From Isoetes taiwanensis (taxonomy: Eukaryota > Streptophyta > Lycopodiopsida > Isoetales > Isoetaceae), in assembly GCA_021234155.1 (NCBI GenBank), contig JAJEKV010000075.1, forward strand, positions 1,548,001 through 1,612,000: a stretch of 64,000 nt of DNA. Reading direction: 5' to 3'. Below the pieces are notes generated by a model that ran no database searches, was not told where the DNA came from, and saw only the letters and a list, made by a program, of their open reading frames with translations. Numbering within the stretch: the first letter of the stretch is position 1; the number at the start of each line of letters is the position of its first letter. Position numbers and translations under genes: made by a program. Below, piece after piece: positions 2,075 to 35,430 of the stretch.

Positions 2075-2845
2075 GACAAGATCAGGATGTCTCTTCTTAA
2101 ACCCCCTCTACCATTTCTGCCCTGGCAGCCCCTCCTTAAAACATGTTTGCCAATTAATTGTCATCTGCCCAACCCTCTCCCTCATCACATCAAGTGTCAC
2201 TGGCCTCCCTTCATCACATAATTGAAAGGCCCAATTAAGCAGCATCTCCTCCTCTTTCATTGTCAATCCCTTTGGGATTGCACCAAACTTGTTGAGTGAT
2301 AAACCATAAAGATGGTTTCTTAAGGTGGTTTGTGGTATCCCAAAGTGGCTTGCAGCTCCTCTTATGGATAGCAGTCCATCTTCAATTGTATCAATAGCCT
2401 TGTCTAAGTCTTCCTTGGACCAAGCTCCCCTCTTTGCACATCTAACCTTCTTAGGCCCTAAATCCTCATGCAACTCTTGCTGTTCTTGGATAAGTGGTCT
2501 TGAGGACCTCTTCTTCTTGCTGGCAGGGATTAGAATTACATCTTCTTGGCAGGCATGGGCTTCTGTTGGTTCTTGTGGAGGTTCAGCATAAGATCTCTTC
2601 CTCAGGTTCATATTTTCAAAGCTCCCAAAACTGCAAGAATTGACACTGCCACTATCAAATTCAAATGGAGGGACACGTTGCTGAGCCAAGAGGGATGAGC
2701 CATATTTAAAGGGTTGAAGGTGGCTGAAAGAAGGGCAGGGATGAAGGCATGTCGTCAATCCAAGAAGACATGCTATGACAGCCATTAAGGAACAAGAGAG
2801 AGAAGAGTGCACCATTAGAGAGAAGATAAGGGAAAGGAAGGGCAA
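2075..2845 (-). pseudogene. Pogo-like transposase, N-terminal HTH part
   Basis: The block from RGAWSKEDLDKAIDTIEDG through SIRGAASHFGIPQTTLRNHL is a classic Psq-type helix-turn-helix as in CENP-B and pogo transposases, which bind the element ends. It lies about 140-185 residues into the open frame. The first ~60 residues are hydrophobic and unlike a transposase, so the true start is probably an internal Met such as the one near MNLRKRSYAEPP. A second DNA-binding half (KGLTMKEEEMLLNWAFQLCDEG) follows. The frame stops with TAG after LPGQKW at about 2108; the codons beyond it continue in the same frame as the expected RGFKKRHPDL segment, so this is a nonsense mutation rather than the end of the gene. 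Confidence 0.78.
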
Positions 2846-5800: not shown

Positions 5801-6830
5801 TTTGAGGACTCCATGACAACAGACAGTTTTTGAAAATATCCCTTCTTCTAACAATCCTTGCTCAAGAAGAGCAGGGTCATCCTAGATAGTTAACGATCTG
5901 AAAGGTACTACATTTATCTGCCTATTTTCTTGTAGAAGTCATTATTTGGGACTTTGTATATAACATCTAAGATGTGATTAATTCAAACAAGGGTGTGGTT
6001 AAATTCGACAACTGTTATCATCACAAAGAACTGCATAGTTTGAAGCCCAAAAACCAATTGTTTTTTTTTTTTCATTTTTGATCAATTTAGCTCTGTTTCG
6101 CCTCAAATCTCTTCCTCTCTTTATCTAGCATAAAAGGGCCTTATAAAGTGATTGGCATACTTTTTAAATCATATCTAGCTACTCATGAAGTAGCAAGATC
6201 CATTTGATCATAATTTCTGCCCCGTCACACAATTCTACGCTTCGTTTTTTGTATGGATTAACCAGGTTATATTCAGATTAACCAGCTGGCTGACATCAGA
6301 TGTCTGGATTAACCACCCTGTCTGATATTGGATGTCAGGATTAACCACATGCTTGTGCCTTGATTAATCACATTCCAGATGACATTATTCTACTCTGATG
6401 ATGCAAGTAGTCTTTTTTTTTCAGTTAATTGTTTTTTTTTTTAATTCTCGGCTTTCTGTCCAAGCCAAACTGAAGAAGTCTAAATGAGAACTTCATTGTG
6501 TATTTAGGTATTTTAGTTATCAAATTAGGTACTGCTTTGGAAGCCTGCACAAGAGTTCTATTTTTGCAGATATTTATCTGGAGCTTTGGTGGATCTCTAA
6601 GTATCATATAGAATGCCGCATTAATCCAAAGCATGTATATGCATTTATTATAGGAATTTAACATCAGAATAGCAAAGCTTATCGAGCAGATAACAAACTC
6701 TTTTAAAGATTGATACCTTTATCATCTTATCAAAAGAAGATTTTCCATACACCAGTTCTTTGCATTTTATCGTGATTTTTATTGCAGTATGGAAATGGAT
6801 GTGCATATAGGAGGAAATCATGTAGCTGAA
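2846..6830. other. Non-coding interval, no gene recognised
   Basis: No convincing gene. Short open frames (2892-3248 minus, 3173-3555 plus, 3689-3995 plus) have no recognisable domain. There is a ~50 bp direct repeat at 4416-4462 and 4685-4732 around the string ATGCAGGGGCATCATCTAAA. A set of GGATTAACCA motifs lies at 6256-6370, and homopolymer A/T runs are scattered. Confidence 0.5.
6256..6370. repeat. GGATTAACCA-motif short tandem repeat
   Basis: The string GATTAACCA recurs at roughly 6257, 6278, 6313 and 6350, with a diverged GATTAATCA near 6361, interleaved with two related strings (GACATCAGATGTCTGGATT and TATTGGATGTCAGGATT). It is a short degenerate array with a unit of about 30-45 bp. 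No coding potential is associated. Confidence 0.5.
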
Positions 6831-6837
6831 ATGCAAT

Positions 6838-7035
6838 GTAATGTACGCGCATGCACGCATTTACGAGCATGCATGCATTTACGTACGTTTACGCATTGCA
6901 TTGCATTTACGCACGTATGCATGCATTTACGCATGCATGCATGCATGCATGTACGCACGCACGCATTTACGCATGCATTTACGCGAGCGAGCGAGCGTGC
7001 GTACAAAAATTTACGCATGCGGCGAGCGAGCGTAG
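6838..7035. repeat. Alternating purine-pyrimidine TTTACGCATGCA minisatellite
   Basis: About 200 bp built from variants of ATTTACGCATGCATGC with long uninterrupted alternating purine/pyrimidine stretches (GCATGCATGCATGCATGTACGCACGCACGCA) and GAGCGAGCG inserts. All six frames are open here, which explains several overlapping ORFs on both strands; they are repeat artefacts. Alternating runs of this kind are candidates for cruciform or left-handed DNA. Confidence 0.85.
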
Positions 7036-7543
7036 GCAAGAATGATGGCATTAGATGGGAAACATGGGGCAGTATATGAAAATAATAGTGTAGCATGTGT
7101 TATTTGAGAAAAGATGCAAAATCATGTCATTGGATATACTGTTTTCCTATAGAACTTACCCTCCAGTTGTTTCATACGCCATACGTCCATCGTCATGTCG
7201 TCTGTCTTAGGATAAACCATTTAACTTAACTCACCATGTTACAACCATTAACGCCACAATCATGTTCGACCCAATTTTATATAACAGATATGTTCAGAAT
7301 AGGGCAACTCTTCCTACTTTCATTACTCAAGTATGGGCACTCCATGCATATGTCATTCACATCAAGAATAGTTATTAAGTTTCAAAGATAATCTAATAGC
7401 TTCACTTTAGAACTCCTTTAGAAAGTCGAAGGACTCAAGATATTAATGGCCGTAATCAAAAAAGGATTTTAGGACTATGGTAGGACTTTGGGCAGTGGAA
7501 CAACTTCTTCTATGGTATAAAGTCTTTGGTGAGATTATTTCCA

Positions 7544-7546
<3 letters not shown>

Positions 7547-7576
<30 letters not shown>

Positions 7577-9327
7577 TAGAAATTGCATTAAGTATACTAA
7601 GCTTAGAAGAATGATTGAATAGTTGATATGTTAACAAATTAACATGGAAAGTAGCATAACTTCTATGTTAACAGGAACGAGGCCATTTATGGGAATGGGA
7701 AAGACACCACTCCTTTAAAAATACCAGGTATATACTAGGTAAGGAAAATTTATTCAATAATCTTAGGGTTCCGGATGGACTAGGGATCCGTCCATCCATG
7801 GACGGAAAAGCAAGTGACGGACCCGACCAACAAGGAAAAGAGACCAGGCAGTTATAGATTCCAGCTTGTAGAACTGGAGTGAAAGAAACATGCACAAATT
7901 TGGCCTGACGGTATTAGGGACAGGGACTAACACTTATTTAAAAGCAGACATGAGGATCGGCCTTAGAACAGATCCTTCTTTAGCTTGCCATTCCGGCCCT
8001 GCCACATCTGAGATAGGCCTTTTAGATGCATGGGAAGAAAGAAGGGGGACTTGAATATGGCCACCAGAAGGAGAATCGAAGCTGAGATGAAAGGGGCTGC
8101 TAAGAAGAAGAAAATATTTGATTTCCACAGGGTTGCAAAAACACCTGTGATGGCAGATTGCTCCAATAAAGGAGAAAAAATGGTTGAAGAAGCTAAGGAA
8201 AAAGCTAATGAGGGGCCTGAGCAGGTGAACAAAGGAACTGATAACAATGGGGGCACTGGCTTCAAGTTGATTATGCAGAATGATGCTATGCAGACAAAGG
8301 ACAAAGGAACAGCCATGGAGGAGATCCAACAAGCAAGCTATTCAGCAGATCTACAAGACCCACAGGTTCTTAGATATACTAAGTTTCATTCATTAAATAT
8401 GTGTGGGATTTACTACAAGGTTTCTTGGTAATTTGCATTAGCATAATTTCATAAGTAGCCATAGGCGATAAGGGCTGCTTTTGACCGATAAAATAAGGTA
8501 GAATGATGTTAGATCTTAGAAAAGATTGGAATAACTTCTCGGATGCATATTATGGCATTGAAAACAGGGGAGATCAAGGTTTGACATACCGGGATCTAAA
8601 GACATTATACATTATTTTTGGTTGTGGATCTTTGCTAACAATATTTGGGAGTCTGCTAATGTATTGGGACAGATGTTTGAGGTAGCACTTATATAATTAA
8701 GATCTGGTATCAAAGAAGAATGAGACAAGAGATAATTTAAGGAGACAACTTATGGGCATCTTTCATTGTCATATATGCCATGATTACCACTGAATTTTCT
8801 CACATGGTCGCCATATTATTTTAATTTACATCAGGCAAATGTGAAGGGGATAACCCAAGAAACTTATAGCTTACCTGCTAGTGACTTAGGCTTTTACCCT
8901 TCTTAGGCTAACAGTCCTTTGGTTTCACTGCAGGTAACCGAGTTTCTTGCTCTTTTGCTTTGATGTTCTTGGTCAAGCTACAAGTATTCACGAATTCTAC
9001 AAATTGTTTCTAAATCTTTGAGTAAGATCTTTTCAAATGACTAGCTATTGTGAACTCATATAGATCTGATAAATCAGATCTATTTGATTGGAACATACAG
9101 ATCTTTTACTATTATCAACTCTTATAGATTGTAGATTTCTAAAGATTATGGAATTATTCTATTTGCAAATTGTACTCTAGACTTATAGTTTATTACAATG
9201 AAAAGTAGAGACTAGAAAAACATGACTATGGCCTTGAAGGGAATCACCTGTAACCTGATAGGGCTGCAAGTTGTACTCTGAAGTACTTGATTGTATTAAG
9301 AGTAAAAGGTCTTAGACTTTAAAGGTT
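7547..9327 (+). repeat. PLE left pseudo-LTR
   Basis: Starts with a run of 28-29 T (7546-7574), followed by ATTAGAAATTGCATTAAG, and ends in GACTTTAAAGGTT. It is nearly identical to 19464-21213, except for a cluster of substitutions and indels between about 8485 and 8815. It lacks the TG...CA ends of true LTRs. It contains the putative first exon of the PLE (8030-8366) and, by position, should contain the promoter. Confidence 0.85.
8030..8366 (+). CDS. PLE putative first exon (basic N-terminal peptide), in left pseudo-LTR
   Basis: The frame opens with MGRKKGDLNMATRRRIEAEM and is strongly basic for its first ~40 residues (KGAAKKKKIFDF). It then becomes polar and runs to a stop at 8431. I propose that it splices at CAG|GTTCTT (8366/8367, phase 0) to an acceptor TTATAG at 9422, giving a junction reading ...QDPQ|ENVNRN. 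The identical frame in the right repeat (19919-20320) shows no disabling change, so it is not freely drifting. The basic start could be a nuclear localisation or nucleic-acid-binding segment. The start codon and the splice are inference; an unspliced 133-residue peptide is the alternative. Confidence 0.5.
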
Positions 9328-9422
9328 TTTTTATTTCATACTCAGTTTTCTAGTTTTACTAGAAACCATAGTTCATGTCTTAAATTCTCAGGTGATTTAC
9401 ACTAATTCCATTGCGTGTTATA

Positions 9423-10479
9423 GGAAAATGTTAACAGAAACAAAACTGACCTATCAGAAGAAGAACAGTGGATCAAAGAGCTGGTCCCATTCAAATACAA
9501 AGAGAATGGCATTATGGCCCCTAATATGGCTGTTCAAAATATACTGGGTTGCATCCGGAATTCTGATATACACAGTCTGATCATTTTCAATGAGAAGAAA
9601 CTGAAAGATAGAAGACTTTCTCCTGTCATTTGCCTAGGATTCAGCGGATGGTTTAAACTATTCGGGCAGATTAAAAAGGCCAATTATGAATACAGCAGAT
9701 GTAAGGAAATTATTAATTCCCTTTACAAGGACATTGGCACTATACTTTACAAAAGGACCTGCTTAGAAGATGAGATGGCACGGAAATTTATAATTGGACT
9801 TTCTATTCTTGAAAAGGTCAATGAAATTGACCCACCTACTTTTGATTTGGAAGATAAGAACTGCAAGAGCAGCCCCAAAGTAACCCCTGAAGTCAATGAA
9901 GATTGCCTCTTCTCTGATTTAGACCTTTCTGAATTTGATTTTCAGACTGCAGAAAATGACAGTGGTAAAGCTGAAAAGGTCCGAATTGATGGAGACTCCA
10001 GCACATTTGCAGCATTTGAAGAAATTCCCAACCTCACACTTGGTAACTCATCCTGTTTTCCTATCATCATTGAGCAAATGGTTGAATGTATGGGAGCATC
10101 TTATTCCCATGCTATATGGAGGAGCCAAAACTTTGGTGCACTTGCCCCTATTGACTTAGATACCTGGATAGCATTTGCTGGTATCACTAAGGAAGAGGTC
10201 AATACAGCTAAATTTACGGCTACAAAACTTGAAAAAACTTTCAAGATGACTGAGGTAACAGTACCATTTGATATGGCCACCTTCGATCAGATCTGTATCA
10301 GAAATAAAGGAATACAAATTGGACAAAAAGGACACATGGCTTATCCTAATGAAGATAGGGATGATTTTTATCTGAAAAGAGTATGGCGCACTCACTGCCC
10401 ATACTTTACTTGTCTTTGCCCAAAACACAAGAATTCACCATGTCACTGCGGCATTATTTGGTTTGATCATGCAATATGG
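9423..10479 (+). CDS. PLE N-terminal region with Cys/His cluster
   Basis: An open frame begins right after a TTATAG acceptor with ENVNRNKTDLSEEEQWIKEL and runs about 350 codons. It shows no family domain I can name. Towards its end is a tight Cys/His cluster, THCPYFTCLCPKHKNSPCHC followed by GIIWFDH, which has the look of a zinc-binding module. The frame runs into the poly-T tail of an inserted LINE at 10480, so its natural C-terminus continues on the other side of that insertion (10888 onward). The frames on the two sides are offset by one, so a small indel accompanies the junction or a splice is missed. It may be the N-terminal part of one long polyprotein or a separate ORF1. Confidence 0.55.
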
Positions 10480-10887
10480 TTTTTTTTTTTTTTTTTTTTT
10501 TTTTTGGAGAAAAGGAAGATTTATATTACTCATCAAGTAGTTACATCAGAAGATATGGGAACCATATAGGCTCTCAAAATTGTGCCTTTAGCACGCATAT
10601 GTATAACATCAAAATTGGATCCGAAGCCTTTGTACATAGAGAAACCCAGCTGCAACAGTAATTCGGTCGATTTCAGAGTGGAGGAACTGGAACTATAAAA
10701 TCAAGGTCTGAATCAGTCTCCTCCTCGTCAATGATCACCAAATCCGAAGCCACTGGATCCACCTGCCAACCAATGTCATTCCATTCGGGTGGGAAAGCAA
10801 AAAACCAAAGAGGGGCTGTTTCAGAGAAAAGGATCAAAGCCTCTCCGTGAGCATCTTGCAAGGCCTTATGGTGGTTTGTGCTTAACC
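10480..10887 (-). mobile_element. 5'-truncated LINE insertion in the PLE
   Basis: A run of about 26 T at 10480-10505 is the A-tail of a minus-strand retroelement. ATATGG flanks both sides (10474-10479 and 10888-10893), a short target duplication. Inside, a minus-strand frame (within 10987-10673) ends ...DEEETDSDLDFIVPVPPL with a stop at 10673, followed by a ~165 bp 3' UTR. That is the structure expected for the last coding bases of an L1-type LINE. The C-terminus is not the same as that of the larger LINE at 24.1-30.6 kb, so it is a different family. Confidence 0.7.
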
Positions 10888-11414
10888 ATATGGAAGAACT
10901 GGATCTGGGCACATCCCCCATCATGAGAATGGTTAATTTTACCAAACTTCTCAATAAGACACTGAAACCCGCAGTTATTGCATACATTTCCTACCTGGAA
11001 GTAAGGAAAGTCATGCTCGACATGACAATGGATATGGCACAGAACCCTAATGCAAACCTCAAGAGCAAATATGGTAACAATAGGATGGCAGATATTGTGG
11101 AGAAAAGTGTCAAGCCTATCTCATTTTTGAAAGCTTATGCTGGCAGCAATAACAGAGGTTACTCTAAAAAAACTCTGGCTGGCAAAAACCTGCATCAGCC
11201 TAACACTACTAAGGGCATACCATGGATGCCACCAAGATTGACATATGACCCTGCACTTGCAAGCAGTGTTGAAGCAAAGGGCTCTGGGCTTAACAATGAA
11301 AAGAAAAACAAGGATGCTAAAAATATTGGACAAGAAGTTGAGAATGTTATCCACCTTGATGAAAATACACCTGACAGTTTGGAAATTGTTGAAGATACCC
11401 AAAATGAAAACTAG
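10888..11414 (+). CDS. PLE middle ORF, continuation after the LINE insertion
   Basis: Open frame reading HMEELDLGTSPIMRMVNFTK onward for ~175 codons, hydrophilic and Lys/Asn-rich, ending ...SLEIVEDTQNEN. No domain recognised. It follows the LINE directly and precedes the RT-bearing frame by about 200 bp with stops. Both frames are in the same phase, and a TACATGTAG acceptor lies at 11604-11612, so an intron is possible, though no strong donor is obvious. The region probably links the Cys/His-rich N-terminus to the RT. Confidence 0.5.
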
Positions 11415-11612
11415 TACAAGAGACCATATGGGCCATGAAAAGACAATGCTATCTGAGTTCGTCTTGATGTTCTTTCCTTTGATAAAATAACAATTATATC
11501 TGAAGTTGTTTGGATATACTTTTTCCTTTGATATCTGTTATATTGTTATATGGCATTGAATCTTATGGAAAAATGTATCTCTCTACATCACTAACCCATG
11601 ATATACATGTAG

Positions 11613-12343
11613 GTGAATAAAAACAATCCAAGAACTATCTCCAGAGACGTTAATATGATGAAACACCTGATCAACAGCAAGGATAAGAAGGACAAAAAGA
11701 TTGTGCACTTTAAATTCTTGTCCAAAAGTCTCGAAAAATTCGAGGTCAGAAATATCTTTCATATAGTACTATCTGAAATTCTAGAAGAGAAAGGAATTAA
11801 GCTACTAGACAACACGATTTTTGCATGGAAGTATTTGGATCAATTAAGAGAAATAGTATACAAACCATTCTCTGTTTTTGCTGAGGCAAGATGCAACAGA
11901 TGCCCATGCTCCAATCCCAATCTAAAAATCTTTCTTGACCATGACATTGGACATATTAGAACTACAGATTTAGCAATCATCCACAATGCCAAACTGAGAA
12001 AAGCATTTGGGAAAGGGCTTAATAACATCCCTGATTGCAGCTTCAGTGTGCAAAAATTCATGGAAGAATTCGAAATTACATGTACACAGTTCTTCACAGT
12101 ACACCAGTATGACTTGATTGATTTAACAGCAGATGATATACAACACATTAGCAACATGCTAATGCAATATGCACATATGGAGGTGGTTGAGTTCAGAAAG
12201 CACATGAAAGAAAAAAGATTTCTCTGGGATGATCCCAATGTAAGAAAAAATGTTGAATGGCTGGTTGGTAACTTTTACATTTCAGGCCTGGATAAGGCAA
12301 ACAATAATCCAGTATTCATTTGTCAGAAACACATATTTGAGAA
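11613..12343 (+). CDS. PLE reverse transcriptase ORF, N-terminal part (interrupted by Copia)
   Basis: Begins at an acceptor-like TGTAG with VNKNNPRTISRDVN and runs 243 codons to the Copia insertion site. The stretch WLVGNFYISGLDKANNNPVF then ICQKHIFE corresponds to the conserved block before the fingers in PLE proteins (an 'xxxDKxxxxVV...Y' motif). A CNRCPCSNPN pair of CxxC-type cysteines lies upstream. Removing the Copia element and one copy of its GAGAA duplication joins this frame directly to the RT frame at 17965, so the insertion broke an otherwise intact gene. Confidence 0.7.
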
Positions 12344-12979
12344 TGTTGAGAATTGAGATCATGTGATATTTGTGGATGAATGTTGATACTGTGTAGCAGA
12401 ACAGACTGGCAGACAAGATCATAGAGTAGCAGGTTCTATAAGCAAGGGGATTAGGGACCATATTGTGGCTCCCCTTGTGTAAGCTGAGTTATGGTGCGTG
12501 AACTTAGTGTTGGTTGTTTGAATGAAATTGAATAATTAAAATGGAGATAAGGTTCAATAGTTCATGGAGCCAAAATGTCAAGTGGAGCATGTGGGATAAT
12601 TCGAGCAGAAGCTCAAAGGACTATTTGGCCTGTGGGATATATGGGTGCAGTCGGATTTGTAGGAAGGAAAGTTTATCTAGCTCCATAACCGCCGGATCAG
12701 AATATACATAAGAAGAAAGGGGGATACGAAGGAGGCGTGTGCCGGAATGTACATCTGAAGATGTGGTCAGAGATGCTACAGTGAATCATTCATAGCCGAG
12801 CTACAGTGGTTTTTCAAAGAGACCATTACCTTGTAAACTTGTATACTAGAAATTCATGATATCTTATCTTGAGGGGGAAATTATGTCTATGGTTAAAACT
12901 TGAATAGCTCAAAGTTGTCCATGATATAAGGTAGATTGATTCTTAAGTGGTCTAACGAGGTAAAGAAAAAAAACCAACA
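12344..12979 (+). repeat. Copia 5' LTR
   Basis: Begins TGTTGAGAATTGAG and ends AAAACCAACA, i.e. TG...CA ends. Nearly identical to 17323-17959, with a substitution near 12572 and a substitution plus one-base indel near 12600. Should contain the promoter and polyadenylation signal of the element. Confidence 0.95.
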
Positions 12980-12993
12980 GTGGTATCAGAGCA
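12980..12993 (+). promoter_or_regulatory. Copia primer-binding site (initiator Met tRNA)
   Basis: GTGGTATCAGAGC follows the 5' LTR directly. TGGTATCAGAGC is the standard plant Copia site complementary to the 3' end of initiator methionine tRNA, which primes minus-strand DNA synthesis. Confidence 0.92.
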
Positions 12994-13007
12994 CAGGTTT
13001 TATAATC

Positions 13008-15533
13008 ATGACAACAAGATTTGGAGCTAACTTGTTAAACTCAATTGAAGTATTTAAAGGAGATGGAGGATTTCAAGTTTGGAAGGAAGGCATTAGGAGT
13101 GTGCTTGAATTTGAAAAGCTGTGGTATCTAATTAGTGGCAGCCCAGTTGTGAGTGCAGGGGCATCTAGTTCAGGTGGTTCAAGTCCTGCTGGCAGTTCTA
13201 ATACTCAGTCTGAAGGTGGTTCAGGCACTGCAAGGGAGTCTCAGGCAGGGGGAACAGCTGCCAGCCCTGCCAGCCCTGAAGGTGAAGAAGTTAAAATTAT
13301 GGAGGCTCAAGCTATAATTATGAGTAAAGTGGGAACTGCTTTGAAACTGAAACTTCGAGGCATGAAGCCTAAGGAAATGTGGGAGTATCTGGTTAAGCAC
13401 TATGAGCAGAAGAGTTCTTCACAAATAGATATGTTGGAGAAAGAGTTAAGAAAAATGAAGCTTGTTGAAAAGGATGATCTAACGAATTTCTTAGAAAGAT
13501 TTGATTCAATTATTGCAGATCTTGAGGGAGCTGGCAATATTCTAAATGAGCAGTATCAAATCTTAGCTTTAGCAAGGGCGGTGTCTCATAATAGTCATTT
13601 GGCAACCTTGCTCAGGAATGTAGCAACTTCAAAAGAACATGCCATCAGGATGATACGCACTGAATTTGAACAATCCAGTGTTGCACAAGAGGAGGCAGAA
13701 CAGTCAGCAGAAGTATTGTACACGGGTAAGGCAAAAAAGTCTGGTTTTAAAAATTTTCCTAAAGGAAAGATAGGACCTTGCTATGTGTGCAACCAATATG
13801 GTCATTTAAAAAGTGAATGTCCTAGTAATACTGAAAGAGAGCTGAGGTGTTTTAACTGTGAAGGTAAGGGTCACTTTGCTTTCAGTTGCTCCAGTCCAAA
13901 AAGAGGGAGAGGTCGAGGAAGAACTGGTAGCTACAGGGGTGGCAGAGGCAGGGGAAGGTTTAGAGGAGGATCAAGTGTCAACATAGTTGAGAAGCATGAG
14001 AGTAGTGAAGGAGAACTTGAAGATGATACTATTGAGGTAAGGAAATATTTAAATTGTAATGTTTCTGTATCTCAGAATGCAAATGATGAAAAATTTGTTG
14101 TGATAGATTCAGGAGCAGAAAAAAGTGTGATGTGTGACCTGCATTTGCTGAAAAATAAGGAGAAAAAGGAAGGATATGTCAAGCTGGGTGATGGAGGATT
14201 AAAGAGAATTGAAGATGCTGGTGTGTTGGAATTATTTGATCTAAATGGAAAAGTGATCAAGTTAAGAGATGTTTTGTGTGTACCTGGACTTGTGAGAAAT
14301 CTTATTTCTGTATGTCAGTTAGTGGATCTAGGGTATAAAGTGTTGTTTGAACAACTTCAATGTAAAGTTTTCTTAAATGGTGAATTGAAGTTTATTGGTA
14401 AACGAGTTGGGAATTTGTTTGGATTAAATGTGGAATCTTTACATGAAGTTAATCTCATTGAATATCCGGATGTAAAATTATGGCATAACAGACTGGGCCA
14501 TGTAAATTCTGCAATAATTACAGCATTGGAGAAAAAAGGATTCATCTCAGCAAAAGTAGAAAAAGAAGAAAAATTCTTATGTGGAGGATGTCAACTTGGA
14601 AAACAAGCAAGGTTGTCATTTGAAAGGTCCAAGAAAAGAGCAAAGGGTATTTTAGATTTGATACACACGGATTTATGTGGACCTATTAATGTCACTAGCT
14701 TGAGTGGATATAGGTATTTTATGAGCTTTATTGATGATTTCAGTAGAAAGACCAAATGTTACATTCTTAAGACAAAAGATCAAGCTAGTGAGGCTTTAAA
14801 ATTGTTTGCTGCTGAGACTGAATTGGAAACTGGGAGGAAAATAAAATGTATACGGTCAGATAGGGGTGGAGAGTATATCTCTGGGGAATTTAAAGAATTT
14901 TGTGCAAATAAAGGAATTAGGAGACAACTAACATGCAGATATTCTCCACAGCAGAATGGAGTAGCTGAAAGAAAGAATAGGACCTTACTTGATGCTGTGA
15001 GGTCCATGTTGAAGTATTCTGGTTTACCAAACTTCTTATGGGATGAAGCCTTGAAGACAGCAGTCTACATTCAGAATTTGTTACCATCCTCCAGCATAAA
15101 AGGTGCTATTCCAGAGATGCTATGGTCAGGTAAGTCTCCATCATATGATGATTTAAAAGCATATGGTTGTTTGTGCTTTGTACATGTTCCTGAGGAGTTA
15201 AGAAAAAAATTAGATGACCGGGCATATATAGCCTATCTGGTTGGATATGATTTAAATTCAAAGGCCTTTAGACTATATGATCCTGCAAGAAGAAAAATCT
15301 TAATAAGTCGAGATGTCATCTTTAATGAAAGGGAGTTCTATAGAAAACTCCCTAAAATAAATTCAGAAGAGTCAATCGAAAGTAAGGTAGCTGATGCAGT
15401 TGAAGAATCAAAACAACAAGTGACTAGTGAAGAAGCAAAAACTGAAAGATTTGAGCAAACATGTATAAGTGATTCAGATAATGAGTCAGAGGTGGCATCA
15501 GATAATTTTATGGAACCAAAGACTAGAACATGA
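13008..15533 (+). CDS. Copia gag-protease-integrase polyprotein
   Basis: Start chosen at ATG 13008 (MTTRFGANLLNSIEVFKGDG), just after the primer site; the frame is open further upstream but that part is LTR. Gag (UBN2/retrotran_gag type) occupies about the first 250 residues. Two CCHC zinc knuckles follow, CYVCNQYGHLKSEC and CFNCEGKGHFAFSC, then a GR-rich basic stretch. The aspartic protease has VVIDSGAEKSVM with the DSGA active site. The integrase has LWHNRLGHVN and CGGCQLGKQ (His/Cys zinc domain), then HTDLCGP, DRGGEY and QQNGVAERKNR (DDE core). The frame ends with TGA at 15533, about 15 codons after acidic linker sequence. Confidence 0.92.
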   Translation: MTTRFGANLLNSIEVFKGDGGFQVWKEGIRSVLEFEKLWYLISGSPVVSAGASSSGGSSPAGSSNTQSEGGSGTARESQAGGTAASPASPEGEEVKIMEAQAIIMSKVGTALKLKLRGMKPKEMWEYLVKHYEQKSSSQIDMLEKELRKMKLVEKDDLTNFLERFDSIIADLEGAGNILNEQYQILALARAVSHNSHLATLLRNVATSKEHAIRMIRTEFEQSSVAQEEAEQSAEVLYTGKAKKSGFKNFPKGKIGPCYVCNQYGHLKSECPSNTERELRCFNCEGKGHFAFSCSSPKRGRGRGRTGSYRGGRGRGRFRGGSSVNIVEKHESSEGELEDDTIEVRKYLNCNVSVSQNANDEKFVVIDSGAEKSVMCDLHLLKNKEKKEGYVKLGDGGLKRIEDAGVLELFDLNGKVIKLRDVLCVPGLVRNLISVCQLVDLGYKVLFEQLQCKVFLNGELKFIGKRVGNLFGLNVESLHEVNLIEYPDVKLWHNRLGHVNSAIITALEKKGFISAKVEKEEKFLCGGCQLGKQARLSFERSKKRAKGILDLIHTDLCGPINVTSLSGYRYFMSFIDDFSRKTKCYILKTKDQASEALKLFAAETELETGRKIKCIRSDRGGEYISGEFKEFCANKGIRRQLTCRYSPQQNGVAERKNRTLLDAVRSMLKYSGLPNFLWDEALKTAVYIQNLLPSSSIKGAIPEMLWSGKSPSYDDLKAYGCLCFVHVPEELRKKLDDRAYIAYLVGYDLNSKAFRLYDPARRKILISRDVIFNEREFYRKLPKINSEESIESKVADAVEESKQQVTSEEAKTERFEQTCISDSDNESEVASDNFMEPKTRT

Positions 15534-17328
15534 ATCTAAAGGGGTAAATACACATCAAGAGACAGACATGGCTAGTCCTATTAAAATAAAAAGGAAACCA
15601 AAAAGGACAGAGGCTCAAATTCTAGCAGATGAAGCCAAATGTAAGTTGGAATTACATGGCAGAACAGAAGGTGGAAGAAGCAAAAGGCTGAGATCTGATG
15701 TAGGAGAAATTAACACCTTGTTTGATATCCTTATTCTTGAAACAGATAAAACTCCTCAAAATTATGCTGAAGCTATTCAAGACTGCAATGCAACAAGCTG
15801 GCTTAATGCAATGGAAGAAGAAATGGGATCTTTTAGAAGAACAAACACATACACAGTAGTAGACATTCCTGGAGATAAGAATATAGTGGGCAGCAAATGG
15901 ATATTTCGTATAAAACCAGGAATTGATAAGAAAACAAAAAAGTTTAAGGCTAGACTTGTAGCACAAGGTTTTACACAAAAAAGAGGTGAGGATTTTGATG
16001 AGACTTTTTCACCCTTGGTAAAAATAAATAGTTTGAGGATGTTATTAGCCATTGCAAATGCCTGTGATTATGAGTTACACCATATGGATGTAAGTACAGC
16101 TTTTTTGAATGCTAAGCTAGAAGAAGAAATATATCTCAGACCTGCTTCTGGTTTTGAAGAAGAAGAGGGAAAGGTTTGGAAGCTGAATAGAGCAGTATAT
16201 GGTCTTCGACAATCTCCAAGAGAATGGTATAAGTGTATGGACGGATATTTGTTAGAACAAGGTTTTGAAAAACTTAATAATGATGGAAATATTTACAGGT
16301 TTACCATGGGAGGTAAATGGTGTATAATTGCTCTATATGTTGATGACAACATCATGGTAGCAAATGACAAGGAAGTATTGAGTCATTGTAAAAATATTTT
16401 AAAGAAACGGTTTCAAATGAGTGATCTTGGGGAACTCAAAAGATTTTTGGGTATTGATGTACACAGAGATAGAAAAAACAGAAGGTTGGCATTAAGTCAG
16501 CAAGGACATATTGAAAATATGCTCAGAAAATTTCATATGGAAGAATGCCATGAAGCAAGTACTCCTATAGTTCCAGGTCATAAAATATCTGCAGAGATGA
16601 GTCCAAGAAATGAATGTGAAGCAAAGCAAATGGAGAGGATACCATATAGAAGTTTAATTGGTTGTTTATCATATGTGGCTAATTGCACTAGACCTGACAT
16701 TGCTTTTGCAGTTAATATTTTAAGCAGGTATAACAACAAGCCAGGAAAAGCACATTGGAATGCAGCAAAACGAGTTTTGAAATATTTGAAGGGTACAATT
16801 CATTTTGGTATTTTGTTTAATGAAGCTGACCTGCAGCTACAAGCTTTCTGTGATGCTGACTGGGGAGGGGATTTAGATAAAAGAAAGTCAACCTCAGGAT
16901 ATATCATTCTATTAGGTGGTGCTCCAGTGGCTTGGAAATGTAAAAAACAGGGAAGTATTGCACTATCTAGTGCAGAAGCTGAGTATAATTCAGCAGCCTT
17001 GCTGACTAAAGAAGTGATTTGGGAGAGGAGACTTATGACAGAATTAGGCTTTGATCAAATAGGACCAACAGTTATTTATTGTGACAATACAAGTTGTATT
17101 GCCATGACAAAAAACCCTATTTTACATGAAAGATCAAAGCACATAGACATGGAGGTTCACTTTATCAGAGATATGGTAAAGAAAAATCAAGTTCATTTGA
17201 CATATATTAGCACTGCAGATCAAAGGGCAGACATTCTCACTAAAGCCTTACCAACATCCAGGTTTCAGGAATTAAGAACATTATTAGAATGTAATGATGT
17301 GAAATATCACATGAAGGGGGAATGTTGA
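15534..17328 (+). CDS. Copia reverse transcriptase-RNase H
   Basis: Continues the polyprotein in the +1 frame relative to the upstream part. After a linker (KRKPKRTEAQI) comes the RVT_2 domain: SWLNAMEEEMGSFRRTNTY, GSKWIFRIK, ARLVAQGFTQKRGEDFDETF, MDVSTAFLNAKLEEEIYL, and the catalytic ALYVDDNIMV near 16330. RNase H follows with FCDADWGGDLDKRKSTSGY and SSAEAEYNSAA, ending HIDMEVHFIRDMV and the usual terminal ADILTKALP segment. Ordinary Copia elements use one frame, so the break at about 15.53 kb is either a recent one-base mutation or a programmed +1 shift. The first is likelier, since no known shift site is evident. Confidence 0.9.
17310..17322 (+). promoter_or_regulatory. Copia polypurine tract
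   Basis: GAAGGGGGAA lies immediately before the 3' LTR and is the expected plus-strand primer. It overlaps the last codons of the RNase H frame. Confidence 0.85.
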
Positions 17329-17959
17329 GAATTGAGATCATGTGATATTTGTGGATGAATGTTGATACTGTGTAGCAGAACAGACTGGCAGACAAGATCA
17401 TAGAGTAGCAGGTTCTATAAGCAAGGGGATTAGGGACCATATTGTGGCTCCCCTTGTGTAAGCTGAGTTATGGTGCGTGAACTTAGTGTTGGTTGTTTGA
17501 ATGAAATTGAATAATTAAAATGGAGATAAGGTTCAATAGTTCATGGAGCCGAAATGTCAAGTGGAGCATGTGGGATAATTTCAAGCAGAAGCTCAAAGGA
17601 CTATTTGGCCTGTGGGATATATGGGTGCAGTCGGATTTGTAGGAAGGAAAGTTTATCTAGCTCCATAACCGCCGGATCAGAATATACATAAGAAGAAAGG
17701 GGGATACGAAGGAGGCGTGTGCCGGAATGTACATCTGAAGATGTGGTCAGAGATGCTACAGTGAATCATTCATAGCCGAGCTACAGTGGTTTTTCAAAGA
17801 GACCATTACCTTGTAAACTTGTATACTAGAAATTCATGATATCTTATCTTGAGGGGGAAATTATGTCTATGGTTAAAACTTGAATAGCTCAAAGTTGTCC
17901 ATGATATAAGGTAGATTGATTCTTAAGTGGTCTAACGAGGTAAAGAAAAAAAACCAACA
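17323..17959 (+). repeat. Copia 3' LTR
   Basis: Second LTR copy, following the polypurine tract and ending AAAACCAACA just before the GAGAA duplication. One base longer than the 5' copy. Confidence 0.95.
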
Positions 17960-17964
17960 GAGAA

Positions 17965-19321
17965 GGCTCAGGAAAGACTAAACAGTCCAGACTTTGAAAG
18001 AACTACACTTACTCCTACTTGTACGGCTGAAATAGCCAAGAAAGAAATCCAAAAGTTTATTGGTATGGATACAGAAATACAAAACAGACTACCATATCTT
18101 ATGGCAAGCTACAAAGCACACAAACATGAGTACAGGTGGCTAACAAATGCACATGACTCAAGCTTTTCTGAGCTAGCTGACCTGATTACGGCAATATTGA
18201 ATGATTTTCTTGAAACTTGGCCCCTGGTTTGCTTCAAAATAACAGCAAAAATCAGATTATTCAGGAATTTCAGAGTCAATGCATCATGGATTATTGACTC
18301 ATCATATGACATGGTTTTAAACCTACCACAAAAGATACACAACGTCTTTGCAGCAGATATTACACATTGTTATGAGACAATTCCTCTTGAAGGGGACGAT
18401 GGCTTAATTGAGATAATGAACGAGATAATTGACATGATTTGGGAATACATGGTAACTGAGAACCATAAGTTTCACTTACTGTACAGAATCAGGGAAGGAA
18501 ATTACATGATTAAATGGGAAAAGAGTATCAAAAGAAACCTCCATATGACATGCTGGAGAACTATTGAGAAAAATGTAATCAAGCAGATGAACACTTGGCT
18601 ACTTTCCAACTGCTATTTACAGCTTGGTAAAACAATTTTTAGGCAGAGAAAAGGGATCCCAATGGGATTTTCTTGTAGCCCAGCATGGTGCAATCTATAC
18701 CTTGCGTGGCATGAATTGAAATTCATACTCAAATTGGCTGACAAAGGCAGATATGAAGATATTAAGAGATTCCAATATACAACCAGATATATGGATGACC
18801 TCAAAATTGTGAATGGAGGTAACATTAAAGAATTTTTTGATCCACGGGCAGAGATTACAATATATAATATGGACTACATAGGGATAAAAGATGAAACTAC
18901 ATACAAAAAAGGTGTACAGGATACAACTGAATCCGTGGGATATAAAATCAATTATATGAATGTTACCATTCAGGTCACTGACCCAAACAGAGGCATATTC
19001 ATAATGACTAGGTATGACAAAAGGGACAAGTTACCTTTTCACGTCAACAAATTCATCAAAGCTGATAGCTGCAGACCATATAGGCAAGCTATGAAAGTCA
19101 TCATCTCACAGATACTACCCTATGTTTATGCGCATTCAAGCCACACCACTGCTGCTGCTGATGTAGCAGGACTTATTGAGGCATTCCAGAATAATGGCTT
19201 TAACAGAAACATGCTTATCAGATTGGTATTGCACACGCTCCAGAATGACAAATTCCCTGGACTTATCTATAATATAAAAGAGATGCTGATAACACTAAAA
19301 GACATTCTACATGCAGTCTAA
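17965..19321 (+). CDS. PLE reverse transcriptase ORF, catalytic part
   Basis: After the Copia element the frame resumes (AQERLNSPDFERTT...) and runs to TAA at 19321. Visible motifs, in order: a KAHKHEYRW segment aligned with the PLE 'KxHK...RPI' block; FAADITHCYETIPL (catalytic Asp of motif A, in PLE style 'DxxxLYTNIP') near 18346-18388; RKGIPMGFSCSPAWCNLYL (motif B) near 18648-18705; YMDD (motif C) at 18788-18799; and a thumb region DKLPFHVNKFIKADSCRPYRQ similar to the PLE post-RT block. The protein ends about 50 residues after that, with no GIY-YIG domain. The element would therefore need nicks, telomere-type ends or another enzyme to prime reverse transcription. No internal stop is seen. 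Confidence 0.8.
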
Positions 19322-19456
19322 TAAATGCAGATGTTTCGAGTTTTTCATACGAAAAATAGGGAGGGCAGGGCCTATGTGTTACAACAAGGCCCTGCTCCCC
19401 TTGTTGTAACAGTCATATGACAATAAAGGCCACCTCCACTACGGAAGGAGGTAGGA
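19322..19456 (+). promoter_or_regulatory. PLE 3' UTR with pseudoknot-like RNA structure and AATAAA
   Basis: Two complementary pairs interleave. GCAGGGCC (19365-19372) pairs with GGCCCTGC (19388-19395), while GTTACAACAAGG (19378-19389) pairs with CCTTGTTGTAAC (19399-19410). The order A-B-A'-B' is that of an H-type pseudoknot, with the two pairings sharing two bases. AATAAA follows at 19422-19427, then a small hairpin ACCTCC/GGAGGT (19432-19437 with 19447-19452). Such a structure just before the terminal repeat could be the RT recognition site or part of a ribozyme; that role is inference. Confidence 0.6.
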
Positions 19457-21213
19457 TTTTTTTATTAGAAATTGCATTAAGTATACTAAGCTTAGAAGAA
19501 TGATTGAATAGTTGATATGTTAACAAATTAACATGGAAAGTAGCATAACTTCTATGTTAACAGGAACGAGGCCATTTATGGGAATGGGAAAGACACCACT
19601 CCTTTAAAAATACCAGGTATATACTAGGTAAGGAAAATTTATTCAATAATCTTAGGGTTCCGGATGGACTAGGGATCCGTCCATCCATGGACGGAAAAGC
19701 AAGTGACGGACCCGACCAACAAGGAAAAGAGACCAGGCAGTTATAGATTCCAGCTTGTAGAACTGGAGTGAAAGAAACATGCACAAATTTGGCCTGACGG
19801 TATTAGGGACAGGGACTAACACTTATTTAAAAGCAGACATGAGGATCGGCCTTAGAACAGATCCTTCTTTAGCTTGCCATTCCGGCCCTGCCACATCTGA
19901 GATAGGCCTTTTAGATGCATGGGAAGAAAGAAGGGGGACTTGAATATGGCCACCAGAAGGAGAATCGAAGCTGAGATGAAAGGGGCTGCTAAGAAGAAGA
20001 AAATATTTGATTTCCACAGGGTTGCAAAAACACCTGTGATGGCAGATTGCTCCAATAAAGGAGAAAAAATGGTTGAAGAAGCTAAGGAAAAAGCTAATGA
20101 GGGGCCTGAGCAGGTGAACAAAGGAACTGATAACAATGGGGGCACTGGCTTCAAGTTGATTATGCAGAATGATGCTATGCAGACAAAGGACAAAGGAACA
20201 GCCATGGAGGAGATCCAACAAGCAAGCTATTCAGCAGATCTACAAGACCCACAGGTTCTTAGATATACTAAGTTTCATTCATTAAATATGTGTGGGATTT
20301 ACTACAAGGTTTCTTGGTAATTTGCATTAGCATAATTTCATAAGTAGCCATAGGCGATAAGGGCTGTTTTGACCAGATAAAATAAGGTAGAATGATGTTA
20401 GATCTTAGAAAAGATTGGAATAACTTCTCAGATGCATATTATGGCATTGAAAACAGGGAGATCAAGGTTTGACATACCAGGATCTAAAGACATTATACAT
20501 TATTTTTGGTTGTGGATCTTTGCTAACAATATTTGGGAGCTGCTAATGTATTGGGACAGGATGTTTGAGGTAGCACTTATATAATTAAGATCTGGTATCA
20601 AAGAAGAATGAGACAAGAGATAATTTAAGGAGACAACTTATGGGCATGCTGCTGTCATATATGCCATGATTACCCTGAAATTTTCTGTCATGGCTGCCAT
20701 ATTATTTTAATTTACATCAGGCAAATGTGAAGGGGATAACCCAAGAAACTTATAGCTTACCTGCTAGTGACTTAGGCTTTTACCCTTCTTAGGCTAACAG
20801 TCCTTTGGTTTCACTGCAGGTAACCGAGTTTCTTGCTCTTTTGCTTTGATGTTCTTGGTCAAGCTACAAGTATTCACGAATTCTACAAATTGTTTCTAAA
20901 TCTTTGAGTAAGATCTTTTCAAATGACTAGCTATTGTGAACTCATATAGATCTGATAAATCAGATCTATTTGATTGGAACATACAGATCTTTTACTATTA
21001 TCAACTCTTATAGATTGTAGATTTCTAAAGATTATGGAATTATTCTATTTGCAAATTGTACTCTAGACTTATAGTTTATTACAATGAAAAGTAGAGACTA
21101 GAAAAACATGACTATGGCCTTGAAGGGAATCACCTGTAACCTGATAGGGCTGCAAGTTGTACTCTGAAGTACTTGATTGTATTAAGAGTAAAAGGTCTTA
21201 GACTTTAAAGGTT
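19457..21213 (+). repeat. PLE right pseudo-LTR
   Basis: Second copy of the ~1.75 kb repeat. It begins with a run of 7 T, then ATTAGAAATTGC, directly after the 3' UTR structures of the PLE body, and ends in AAAGGTT followed by the CACAT flank. The shorter T-run than the left copy suggests slippage on the left. An orphan copy of the first-exon ORF lies at 19919-20320. Confidence 0.85.
19919..20320 (+). CDS. Copy of PLE first-exon ORF in right pseudo-LTR
   Basis: Identical translated frame to that starting at 8030 (133 residues, MGRKKGDLNM... to ...YYKVSW). In this copy there is no downstream PLE body to splice to, so it is probably non-functional here unless transcription reads into flanking DNA. 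Its exact conservation is due to recent duplication during retrotransposition rather than proof of selection. Confidence 0.45.
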   Translation: MGRKKGDLNMATRRRIEAEMKGAAKKKKIFDFHRVAKTPVMADCSNKGEKMVEEAKEKANEGPEQVNKGTDNNGGTGFKLIMQNDAMQTKDKGTAMEEIQQASYSADLQDPQVLRYTKFHSLNMCGIYYKVSW

Positions 21214-21218
21214 CACAT

Positions 21219-22352
21219 CGTCAATTGTTTCTCGAGGTTCAATTCAATTCATACTGTTAACAGCTTGACAATATGCTGCCCTAACTAATGGTTGGTCCAA
21301 TTGGTTAGATATATAGCATGTGTGACGAGACCACTGATAACACATTTTGAGGAGTTCTTAGTAGGGAGCATTCTCCTCAGATGGTGCAATATATGTAGAG
21401 AATGAAAGCAATATGAGTAGATCATGCACGAGGGATGACAAAAGGGTTTAAAGACCCGGTAAAAGGATCTCCAATTCAGTACCCTTTAAGTGATTGCCAT
21501 GCCTGAAGATGTGCATCCTAGAAATGGCATCACGAAAATGGACCAAGAGGTGTCGCGGGCTGTGCTGCTCCAACCCGCTGAGCCGAGATAATGCCATCCG
21601 TCTGTATGTGCATAACCTTGGTAAAAAAAATAAAACACTATGCCTCAGTTGTAGCAGAACAACCATCATCTCCTCAGTATCAACGAGACGTAAGTTCAGG
21701 GTTAGTGTGTGATCGTCCTTCGATGATCTGCGGGGCTCTTAAGTGGGGATTTCTGCCTGGACAAATTTCGCAGTCGAAGTCTATACAAACATGTCTACCT
21801 TATGAACTTGCACAGTCACTATGATGGGCATTGTAGACGTTGTTGGCGGGACACAATGTGACTTGCCAAATCTAGCACTAACTGCAAATGTTGTACCCAG
21901 CTTCCCAAAGGCAACTGAACAGATGTCCCGGTGATAGCGGTGTGGGACTGGATCGTTTCAATCTTGGCAAGGATTGCTGATGGCAGACAGTGGATATGAG
22001 CCAACAGCTTATCCAAAGCTGTACGTAGAAGCGTGTCTGAAACTCTTTTTGTCTGCGCCAAAATAGGTCGTTGAGGTCCAAAGAACGGTGTTGCAAGAAG
22101 GTAAGATTCAATTGTAGGATCAAGAAATGTCCTGATGAGGTTCCTAGCTTTCCGAGTCTCCCTTGCCATGGACTTGATTCTGCGCGTCATGGTAAGTGGC
22201 TATGACACTGTTAGGTTGGGTATGGGTATACCAAATCAAGGGCAATCCAAATCAATGCGAATGATGTGATGGACAAAGCTGCCTTTTTAATAAGGGACAA
22301 GGGAATAGTGTCCAGGAAGATGCTAACTGGACCAATAAACTTGATCACCCTG

Positions 22353-22383
<31 letters not shown>

Positions 22384-24088
22384 CCGATTTGTCCTATGGC
22401 AAACCTTCCTAAACTTTCTTAAAGCTGAGCAGATTGAGGCTGGTAGATTCATAGCTGTGGAAAATTCGTGGCCTCACATGTGCGGGAAGGAGCAAGGAAA
22501 AGCAATACTGGATGAACCTGGTCTGGCGGAGGCAGAAGGTGCAAAGTGGCAGACTCGTGACTACGGCTAGAGGTGCGGATTGAAGAAGAAAAGGCAAAGG
22601 GAAGAAAACAAAAGCGAACTCGCTGTTTCGAATCGGCCGATTCAAGCTCGGGTCAGCCAGGTGCCGACCATGCGGTCCAGCATCGCTATGCTTTGGGTCT
22701 TCTTACTAGCGCCTAGCAGTGCTACGTACTTTGTTTGCCTACAACGTCTTTATACATATTGGGCTCTCTACCCATCTTTAATACCCGATTTAATACATTG
22801 AGATACTCTTAGACGACAATTTCAACACCATGAATAATTAGATAGATAGATAGACACACATCCACTTTAGCAAATATCAACCTTTATCACTCTGCAACGA
22901 CATCGCACATGATTTGTCGGGAGAGAACTCACTTACATTAAAGCCAGATAAAAATACACAAGGTTCTACTGTAGTGCGACAATGTTGGGCACATGTTTAC
23001 GAATACAAGAAATTTATCGTGCCGCCGCGAACATTTCTTTAGTTCCGTACTTGTGTGGTCGGATCTGCTCTTAATGTCCAACATTTGATAATGGTTCCTT
23101 GCTTAGTAATGACATTTGTGTCAGTCATACGGAATATGTTCCTAAGCATATGAGATCAAAGCGCTTAAGCATGCCAAATAAAAGTTTACGTGGAAGCAAC
23201 ATGAACTTAGAAGAAGAACTAAATGTAGCACGCAAATTACCACAAGAAGAAACCAGAGACAATGAAAGAAAAAGGATGTTAAGAGAAGAGAACATGTGAT
23301 AAATTGTAGTCGTACATAGTAGAAGGAAAATGACGCACCTAAAAACCTTTCAAAGTAAAGAGGGCTAGAAAGTAAACTTTGTTTAATTGAATGGGTTTTT
23401 CCATGTCTAAAAGGAAAGCAACTTCGTTAATTGATGGGTTTTTCCATGTCTAAAGGGAAATGATAAGTGGCATATTTAGGGCATATTTGTGATTCACTGT
23501 GACTCTATTTCTTTGGTATATTATGCAACTGGAGTTCTATCCCAATAGCTTCTATAAATGGTAAGAAGGATCATAACAGCTTTGGTAATGGGGACAGAAG
23601 GATCGAAATAGCCAGAAGCATCGAAGTGCTTTTACATTATTTTTTGACTAACTGTCCTCTGGTTTCACTGCAGGTAACGGGATTTCTTGCTCCTGTGTAT
23701 GTTTTTCCATTCATTCAAGTTGGAGAAGCTACAAGACGTGATGACATTGAACTTACATTTTTGACAAGGCTACTGAGCTATAAGGTGTTGATTTAAAAGA
23801 CAAGTGAAATCCTAAACTTCGTGTTCAATCTTATGTTATTTTTGAGTCAATTCTGAATTCTTTTAGGGGTAAATATTATGTATTGAACGAGAAAATTAAT
23901 TGGATTGACAAGAGGAAATTTTTATTTATAAGAGAATCTGGTAATTTCTTTTGCTTTGATCAACGTTAACCATTTTTAAGGCTTAAGTCAAATTGACACC
24001 TGTTTTGGCTTAAGGCTGCATATTGACCGGAAGTGGTCTTTGCAAAAGTCCATGGAAGGTAAAAGTCTGTTGAACAGATTTTAAAAGG
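21219..24088. other. Intergenic interval with small relics
   Basis: No gene recognised. A minus-strand frame at 22190-21819 (123 codons, Arg/Leu-rich) has no family I can name. An A-run of about 29 bases at 22353-22381 may be the tail of a plus-strand retrocopy. A short tandem repeat lies at 23390-23465 around GGGTTTTTCCATGTCTAAA. At 23648-23700 there is a diverged match to the PLE pseudo-LTR. Confidence 0.45.
23648..23700 (+). repeat. Relic of PLE pseudo-LTR
   Basis: The string TGGTTTCACTGCAGGTAAC plus flanking CTAAC(T/A)GTCCT and TTTCTTGCTC matches 8904-8955 and 20790-20842 with several differences. It suggests an older member of the same family beside the present one. Confidence 0.55.
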
Positions 24089-24539
24089 TTTTTTTTTTTT
24101 TTTTTTTTTTTTGAAGTTAAGATTGTTTTTTCCATTAATTAATAAAAGCCATACATAAGTTTAACTAATGAGGGAAGAATCATCCTCATTAGCTATAACC
24201 AAAGTGCAGAAGTGTCAAGTAATATCCATTTGGAACATTATCACCACAAAATATGGTAACTTCCTGAGAAGAACCAAAAGATTCTGGCAGACTGTCATGT
24301 AAGAGAGTGCACAATAAAAATAAACTGCCCTAAAATGTTGTAGCTGGAAAACAGATATTGCAATATATTCTCCAATCCAACTGAGATCCCAATTCCTGCA
24401 AAGACAAAATTTGGTCTTCAAATACATGTGTAAAGTGTTAGACAAGAGCTAGATTATATACTGAGCAACAGTTTATGACAAAATATGGAGATGCAATATT
24501 GGAGTAGAGGGATAGGGTGAGTGGTGGCAAGGCTGGAGT

Positions 24540-35398: not shown

Positions 35399-35430
35399 TT
35401 TAACACAAACCATTACATCTAACAATTTCA

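Follow-up and report, generated by a model that had tools for sequence, protein, structure and literature searches.

The LTR-like element in the window and its family

We analyzed a 64,000-nt stretch of the Isoetes taiwanensis genome (positions 1,548,001 to 1,612,000 of contig JAJEKV010000075.1; here, the window) that contains a retroelement with long direct terminal repeats. A sequence-only reading had described this element as a Penelope-like element (PLE) that lacks an endonuclease and keeps a promoter and an exon in its repeat. The 5′ repeat, which resembles a long terminal repeat (LTR), lies at positions 7568 to 9327 and the 3′ repeat at 19457 to 21213; they are 99.0% identical over 1763 aligned columns, far above chance. 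All features of the element are on the plus strand. Its left edge is a run of 29 T (7546 to 7574), whereas the internal copy of the same edge has 7 T. The 5′ repeat contains a TATA-like word (7935 to 7941) located 95 nt 5′ of the ATG of exon 1, a predicted exon 1 of 112 codons (MGRKKGDLNMATRRRIEAE...; 8030 to 8365) that ends at CAG|GT in phase 0, and the first copy of a putative structured RNA element (8841 to 8955), which was recognized by conservation, covariation, and a match to a covariance model. A short covarying hairpin (9347 to 9365) lies just inside this repeat. The body of the element consists of open reading frame 1 (ORF1; candidate exon 2, 9424 to 11414), encoding a conserved Cys/His protein with no known domain, and ORF2 (candidate exon 3), encoding the reverse transcriptase (RT). 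ORF2 is present in two parts, with the start of the RT frame at 11613 to 12343 and the RT core and C terminus at 17960 to 19321; the RT motifs DITxCYxxIP, GIPMG, and YMDD are located within 17936 to 19321. A conserved purine-rich motif (19430 to 19456) abuts the 3′ repeat, which contains a second exon 1 (from 19919) and a second RNA element (20727 to 20841). The word CACAT, to which no strand was assigned, flanks the element on the left (7542 to 7546) and on the right (21214 to 21218), forming a possible 5-bp target-site duplication.

Two insertions split the body. One is a nested Copia element on the plus strand (12344 to 17959), foreign to the element studied here, with LTRs that are 99.5% identical to each other and a duplicated GAGAA (12339 to 12343 and 17960 to 17964). 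The other lies near 10.48 to 10.87 kb, in ORF1, and ORF1 of the window copy is found in two frames (9424 to 10569 and 10851 to 11414). The frames of the window copy, split by these insertions, were searched as separate pieces.

We searched the genome (1,658,258,908 bases in 1110 contigs, with the window in contig C1084) and scored at least 92 RT copies by protein search (3899 first-look candidates); the 91 others are 52 to 85% identical to the window RT. Twenty loci (L001 to L020), chosen by RT or repeat similarity and many of them for their long open frames, were compared with the window; some are cut by the stretch taken, or have other insertions or broken frames. Self-comparison and frame lists gave the same order for related loci: repeat, ORF1 of ~520 amino acids, RT frame of ~690 amino acids, repeat. 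The repeats are 1.7 to 2.4 kb long in well-resolved loci, and the aligned repeat pieces are 92.5 to 100% identical. In L016, the aligned repeats span 2.6 kb and their inner end is unclear; no long repeat pair was found in the stretches taken from L006, L010, L012, and L018. A pattern for the junction of the body with the 3′ repeat, ACGGNWGGAGGNAGGN{0,1}TTTTTTATT, had 170 matches in the genome and none in a reversed control. We conclude that the element is one copy of a multicopy family of plant retroelements that have long direct terminal repeats. No relatives were found in the viral contigs or other genome contigs searched, and a plasmid search returned just two matches, at E values of 1 and 3. 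The open-licence literature that we searched yielded no description of this element.

Downstream of the element, positions 23628 to 24115 of the window hold fragments that are 74 to 92% similar to the terminal repeats of the family and are probably the remains of another copy.

A repeat-borne exon, two candidate acceptors, and covarying RNA

A pattern search located the N-terminal motif of exon 1 in 19 of 21 loci (the 20 genome loci and the window), the exceptions being L006 and L009. In 15 of the 19 motif-bearing copies, exon 1 is open up to a phase-0 AG|GT at codons 111 to 125. The ratio of nonsynonymous to synonymous change (NG86 omega) was 0.20 to 0.44 in the six of nine pairs with finite dS; dS was saturated in the other three. 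Over the first 36 alignment columns, pN was 0 to 0.22 and pS was 0.31 to 0.90. TATA-like words, from a set picked after inspection of the window copy, occurred 50 to 130 nt 5′ of the ATG in 12 of 17 copies, compared with 2.15 on average and at most 7 in 300 shuffles. These data suggest that the repeat carries a TATA-like promoter and a first exon that is under purifying selection and ends at a phase-0 AG|GT. Comparison of the copies gives strong support to a repeat-borne first exon, in agreement with the promoter-plus-exon repeat of the sequence-only reading.

In the window copy, the predicted junction joins the exon at 8030 to 8365, followed by CAG|GT at 8366, to an exon that begins at 9424, after the acceptor TTATAG ending at 9423. 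The donor and acceptor proposed earlier recur at the same places in related copies, but the downstream exon starts at 9424 and not, as had been stated, at 9423. At the ORF1 edges, a conserved peptide directly follows a TAG acceptor in 11 of 13 listed loci; the rows of L012 and L018 do not represent genuine ORF1 edges. Comparison of the loci also identified a candidate acceptor before the RT frame, which the earlier reading did not contain. There, an AG acceptor lies at the frame start or a few codons inside it in 15 of 15 copies; in 13 the frame starts directly after TAG, and the internal acceptors, both CAG, are those of L014 and L020. One property of the frame lists tells against reading these trinucleotides as acceptors: the lists run from stop to stop and so begin after a stop by construction, and because of this a TAG at a frame edge is by itself no evidence. 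The evidence for the acceptors is instead the conservation of the peptides and the branch-like words. The word CTAA[CT] occurs 13 to 45 nt 5′ of the ORF1 edge in 8 of 11 copies (1000 shuffles: mean, 0.99; maximum, 4) and of the RT edge in 8 of 15 (1000 shuffles: mean, 1.42; maximum, 6). All 26 acceptors (11 at ORF1 edges and 15 at RT edges) are followed by G.

The frame lists of related loci showed no conserved start codon at the start of ORF1 or of the RT frame, and the first Met occurs 7 to 146 residues into the RT frame (L001, L002, L004, L005, L008, and L011). Both body frames thus appear to start at phase-0 splice acceptors with no conserved start codon of their own, and therefore one repeat-borne exon would feed two proteins. 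Exon 1 is probably spliced to one or the other of these two frames. We also considered a fusion of ORF1 to the RT through a donor near the end of ORF1 and rejected it: within the final 80 codons, the eight copies examined have no phase-0 G|GT in common.

The ~115-nt block of each window repeat that holds the RNA element is more conserved than its surroundings. RNAalifold predicted 33 pairs from 14 sequences. The 13 distinct rows contain 33 two-sided cells, compared with a mean of 8.4 in shuffled alignments (0 of 500 shuffles reach the observed value), and sliding the alignment lowered the paired cells to 29 to 49%. A covariance model returned 39 sense matches, found in each of L001 to L020 and in both window repeats, and 4 antisense matches, all with E values of 0.11 or worse. 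Nine of these 20 loci were outside the training set; eight sequences that the model located in them fold alone to the same hairpin, with two-sided changes at 19 of 34 pairs. Rfam gave no match to the RNA element except an antisense, chance-level graze of the second copy (20630 to 20740; E value, 1.3). The stem of the RNA element contains the invariant word UGCAGGUAAC, and the element may therefore act in splicing control; it may just as well serve in recognition by the RT. In the hairpin at 9347 to 9365, 96.9% of cells pair across 12 copies, there are 13 two-sided cells, and the covariation score is reached by 0 of 500 shuffles. The hairpin and the purine-rich motif occupy the places of the primer-binding site and the polypurine tract of an LTR element, a resemblance of position only. 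The covarying RNA of the repeat and the adjacent hairpin were absent from the earlier reading and are identified here.

Reverse transcriptase, enzymes, and integration sites

We compared the family RT with five groups over 53 motif-block columns, leaving animal PLE sequences out of the comparison. Mean scores were 67 for PLE, 66 for telomerase, 69 for group II introns, 18 for Gypsy, and 13 for Copia. All five exceed 5000 shuffles, and a tree of the 53 columns had low branch support. On these scores a Copia or Gypsy RT is unlikely, and the family RT appears to side with PLE, telomerase, and group II. A group II model gave weak matches in 11 of 13 RT members. Profile comparison was likewise weak, with a probability of 1.3% to the native PLE described below and of 14.9% to a piece of the host telomerase. 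The earlier assignment to PLEs is plausible but provisional: the RT appears to lie on the PLE/telomerase/group II side, but the motif-block tree does not separate these three. An animal RT sequence with a YDKRDDF motif scored 111 bits against the RT profile (E value, 4.5e-34, in a 202-sequence test set), where the best of 200 shuffles reached 6.5 bits; it provides only a lead that the RT group could be wider than plants.

The family has terminal repeats and, as predicted by comparison of the copies, introns, as PLEs do. Hammerhead ribozymes are common in the pseudo-LTRs (pLTRs) of PLEs; Rfam gave no hammerhead match up to an E value of 5 at positions 5000 to 24000 of the window. Passages of a study of PLEs (PMC3846280) describe direct pLTRs, retained introns, AT-rich simple sequence as the favored target of Penelope, priming of endonuclease-lacking [EN(−)] PLEs at chromosome ends or breaks, and a pLTR of Pen2a in which a TATA box and the first 12 codons of the ORF may be located. 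Another study (PMC9033089) reports plant EN(−) PLEs from Selaginella and conifers.

With a Penelope RT fragment as the probe, we obtained four PLE-like matches in the I. taiwanensis genome and fetched three of the loci, L026, L027, and L028 (contigs C957, C920, and C1028, respectively), which we take to be Coprina-like. Identity to L026 is 93% for L027 and 98% for L028. Pfam found no GIY-YIG domain in L026, and in both loci scanned for them, L026 and L028, the RT frame has 7-bp telomeric arrays nearby. L026 scored just 1.1 bits against the family RT profile, and the covariance model did not find the RNA element in any of the three loci. In the stretches examined, no long repeats flank the RT on both sides; L028 has a 729-bp direct repeat with both copies 3′ of the RT. 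By these comparisons, the native telomeric EN(−) PLE is different from the family studied here. The family itself was not seen beside telomeric repeats; nearly all of its readable outer ends lie in T-tracts.

We searched the element for enzymes by using Pfam. The RT piece of the window copy scored 27.6 bits against RVT_1, just below the curated cutoff of 29.6, and its four other frames matched no Pfam family. GIY-YIG was not found in any of these five frames. Of 263 candidate GIY-YIG sites in the genome, 150 were scored and 121 matches were listed; no RT copy among the 92 has a listed match closer than 100 kb (nearest, 104,984 bp), and for 60 of them a listed match is located on the same contig. 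These results agree with the earlier claim that the element lacks an endonuclease. Across exon 1, ORF1, and the RT, Pfam returned RVT_1 and single-member, chance-level matches, with no integrase, RNase H, protease, or recombinase; a DIRS-type tyrosine recombinase had no Pfam match in ORF1 or the RT. ORF1 is 49 to 76% identical to the first of eight copies, and its Pfam matches are weak and confined to single members (best E value, 0.0043). Neither the RT piece nor ORF1 had a match in the PDB. The RT profile gave four retropepsin rows against the PDB, with E values of 0.7 to 0.8, which we took as chance. Single-sequence AlphaFold models of two window pieces had mean pLDDT values of 34.5 and 37.5, too low for use.

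Two side observations arose from these searches. The C terminus of ORF1 (alignment A7) has a conserved VISLDD..TP..IE.VEDSQ-like tail that resembles a SUMO-interacting motif. In L024 (positions 400 to 3394), the only one checked of four loci opened, a 144-amino-acid GIY-YIG frame adjoins PIF1-like helicase frames, and several other GIY-YIG matches have frame lengths like it, which suggests that frames of this type are on a Helitron-like carrier.

The outer edges of the family copies are rich in T. In all 11 loci with a readable outer left edge, the longest T-run there is 10 to 33; at the outer right edge it is 11 to 26 in 12 of 13 readable loci, whereas the internal copies of these edges have 6 to 8 T in 23 of 24 cases (11 in L020). 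L017 adjoins a near-identical uninterrupted site that has its own run of ~19 T. One genomic repeat word, present in the sequence to the right of both L005 and L019, is preceded by T10+ in 73 listed matches, some places being listed twice. Two of the 73 fit the AAGG-T end pattern of the element and L005 is a third by its coordinates; this pattern misses long T-runs, so a few more of the 73 may be element ends. These observations support targeting of preexisting T-tracts by the family. Readable copies end in T-runs, with no TG..CA ends, which is consistent with the earlier reading. The CACAT-flanked repeats described for the window copy are present, with CACAT at both ends, but the duplication is the exception in the family: it is a single case, other readable copies end in T-tracts, and T-tracts would mask any fixed-length duplication. 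At L020 (positions 188 to 831), the copy appears to have inserted where an older family repeat ends in its T-run.

A proposed cycle and its alternatives

Taken together, we consider it likely that the family combines an RT of the PLE/telomerase/group II side with exon-bearing repeats, two-way splicing, no recognizable endonuclease or integrase, and entry into T-tracts. In the cycle that we propose, RNA polymerase II would start at the TATA-like box of the 5′ repeat, as the enrichment of this motif suggests, and the transcript would open with the repeat-encoded exon 1. The two phase-0 acceptors would be used alternatively, with exon 1 spliced onto either exon 2 (ORF1) or exon 3 (the RT frame), such that, as comparison of the copies indicates, the two proteins would share one basic N terminus. 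The unspliced RNA would serve as the template, and for this reason the introns would persist. The RNA element and the adjacent hairpin may be recognition or priming structures or may regulate splicing; the latter is possible because the stem of the RNA element buries an invariant CUGCAG|GUAAC-like word. The cDNA may then enter T-tracts by pairing of its T-run with oligo(A/T) ends at breaks or nicks, with no nuclease of its own; the location in T-tracts is observed, and this manner of entry is conjectural.

Several observations weigh against this account. Four of the 19 exon 1 copies (L001, L004, L007, and L019) are broken or have no donor, and 8 of the 15 open copies have further phase-0 AG|GT sites, the donor at codons 111 to 125 being the one shared in position. 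The strict branch-like word is missing at 7 of 15 RT edges. Our choice of loci may underrepresent 5′-truncated copies. Further pair types in the RNA element are no more numerous than in shuffles (131 of 500 reach the count), and two of five measures for the hairpin are just weakly above (39 and 35 of 500 shuffles reach them). The right edge of the window copy breaks the T-tract rule, with GGTT followed by CACAT, and a 5-bp CACAT duplication would suit an integrase and does not fit the T-tract picture. A nuclease of novel fold could also reside in ORF1 or the N terminus of the RT.

The family might instead be an ordinary EN(−) PLE of the Athena/Coprina type, with long pseudo-LTRs that happen to hold a first exon and insertion by break or end priming. 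Direct pLTRs, retained introns, first codons in a pLTR (12 amino acids in Pen2a), and AT-rich simple sequence as the Penelope target all appear in passages of PMC3846280, and the RT motif blocks of the family are as near to EN(−) PLE as to telomerase. We nevertheless judge this unlikely, given that the native EN(−) PLE lies near telomeric arrays without long repeats on both sides and with the RNA element in 0 of 3 loci, that its score against the RT profile and the profile probabilities are low, and that no hammerhead was matched. As in Athena and Coprina, for which we rely on parts of PMC3846280, the RT is outside Copia and Gypsy, no GIY-YIG was found, and introns are apparently kept. Unlike them, the family has direct 1.7- to 2.4-kb repeats on both sides with a covarying RNA inside, T-tract sites rather than telomeric neighbors, and separate ORF1 and RT frames apparently fed by one repeat-borne exon. 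These distinguishing features were not seen in the stretches examined of L026 to L028. With the canonical Penelope Pen2a_Av, as portrayed in that source, the family shares a TATA box and first ORF codons (12 amino acids) in the pLTR; it differs in having an apparently spliced repeat exon of 111 to 125 codons and two target exons, with no GIY-YIG found. A derived or degenerate LTR retrotransposon (Copia, Gypsy, or DIRS) that lost its integrase and RNase H would account for the full-length direct repeats, the purine-rich motif abutting the 3′ repeat, the conserved structure at the primer-binding position, and the possible 5-bp duplication of the window copy. The order of LTR, structure at the primer-binding position, body, purine tract, and LTR is that of Copia and Gypsy. 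However, the RT is of another group, its Gypsy and Copia scores being far below the 66 to 69 of the other three, though also above shuffled sequence; Pfam detected no integrase, RNase H, protease, or recombinase; and the termini are T-runs instead of TG..CA. We therefore find this origin very improbable.

Two further alternatives concern parts of the account. The outer T-runs could be made by the element, through slippage or untemplated addition during cDNA synthesis, instead of being the target. The window copy, with 29 T on the left, 2 T at the right edge, and CACAT on both sides, is what this would predict, whereas the ~19 T of the uninterrupted site beside L017 and the small number of T10+ matches that fit the end pattern (two plus L005, long T-runs being missed) argue for a T-tract that was there before; we doubt that the element made the runs. 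The conserved block of the repeat could likewise be a splicing ratchet point (CTAAC...TGCAG|GTAAC) and not an RNA structure with a role of its own. CTGCAGGTAAC is invariant in the 14 rows of alignment A3, as is GGCTAA upstream, and TGCAGGTAAC is invariant in the 8 rows of alignment A6. The covariation of the flanking stems, with nearly four times the two-sided cells of the shuffled mean, makes a ratchet point rather doubtful, if somewhat less so than element-made T-runs.

Beyond the cycle, we suggest only tentatively that the family represents a distinct order of eukaryotic retroelements, in which LTR anatomy and a PLE/telomerase-side RT would be combined with no integrase or endonuclease, entry into poly-T tracts by end pairing, an LTR encoding a first exon shared by two alternatively spliced proteins, and a dedicated structured RNA. 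Relative to the earlier reading, this analysis adds the probable splicing of exon 1 into either of two frames, the RNA element, the location in T-tracts, and the native telomeric EN(−) PLE. A repeat that gives a promoter, a start codon, and a first exon to two proteins would couple inheritance of the repeat to coding function, and this exon-in-LTR architecture would become testable in a land plant. An LTR-like family with no detected integrase or endonuclease bears on the origin of LTRs and on integration by elements with a PLE-side RT. Because the genome also harbors a telomeric EN(−) PLE, a single host offers both strategies for comparison, and the covarying RNA is a concrete target for RT-binding or splicing assays.

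Elsewhere in the window, a ~1-kb stretch (34708 to 35687) is 75 to 82% similar to stretches of L012 and L018. Just 5′ of the element, at 6840 to 7097, lies an ATGC-rich simple repeat, which gave spurious matches to microRNA families at scores below the gathering threshold.

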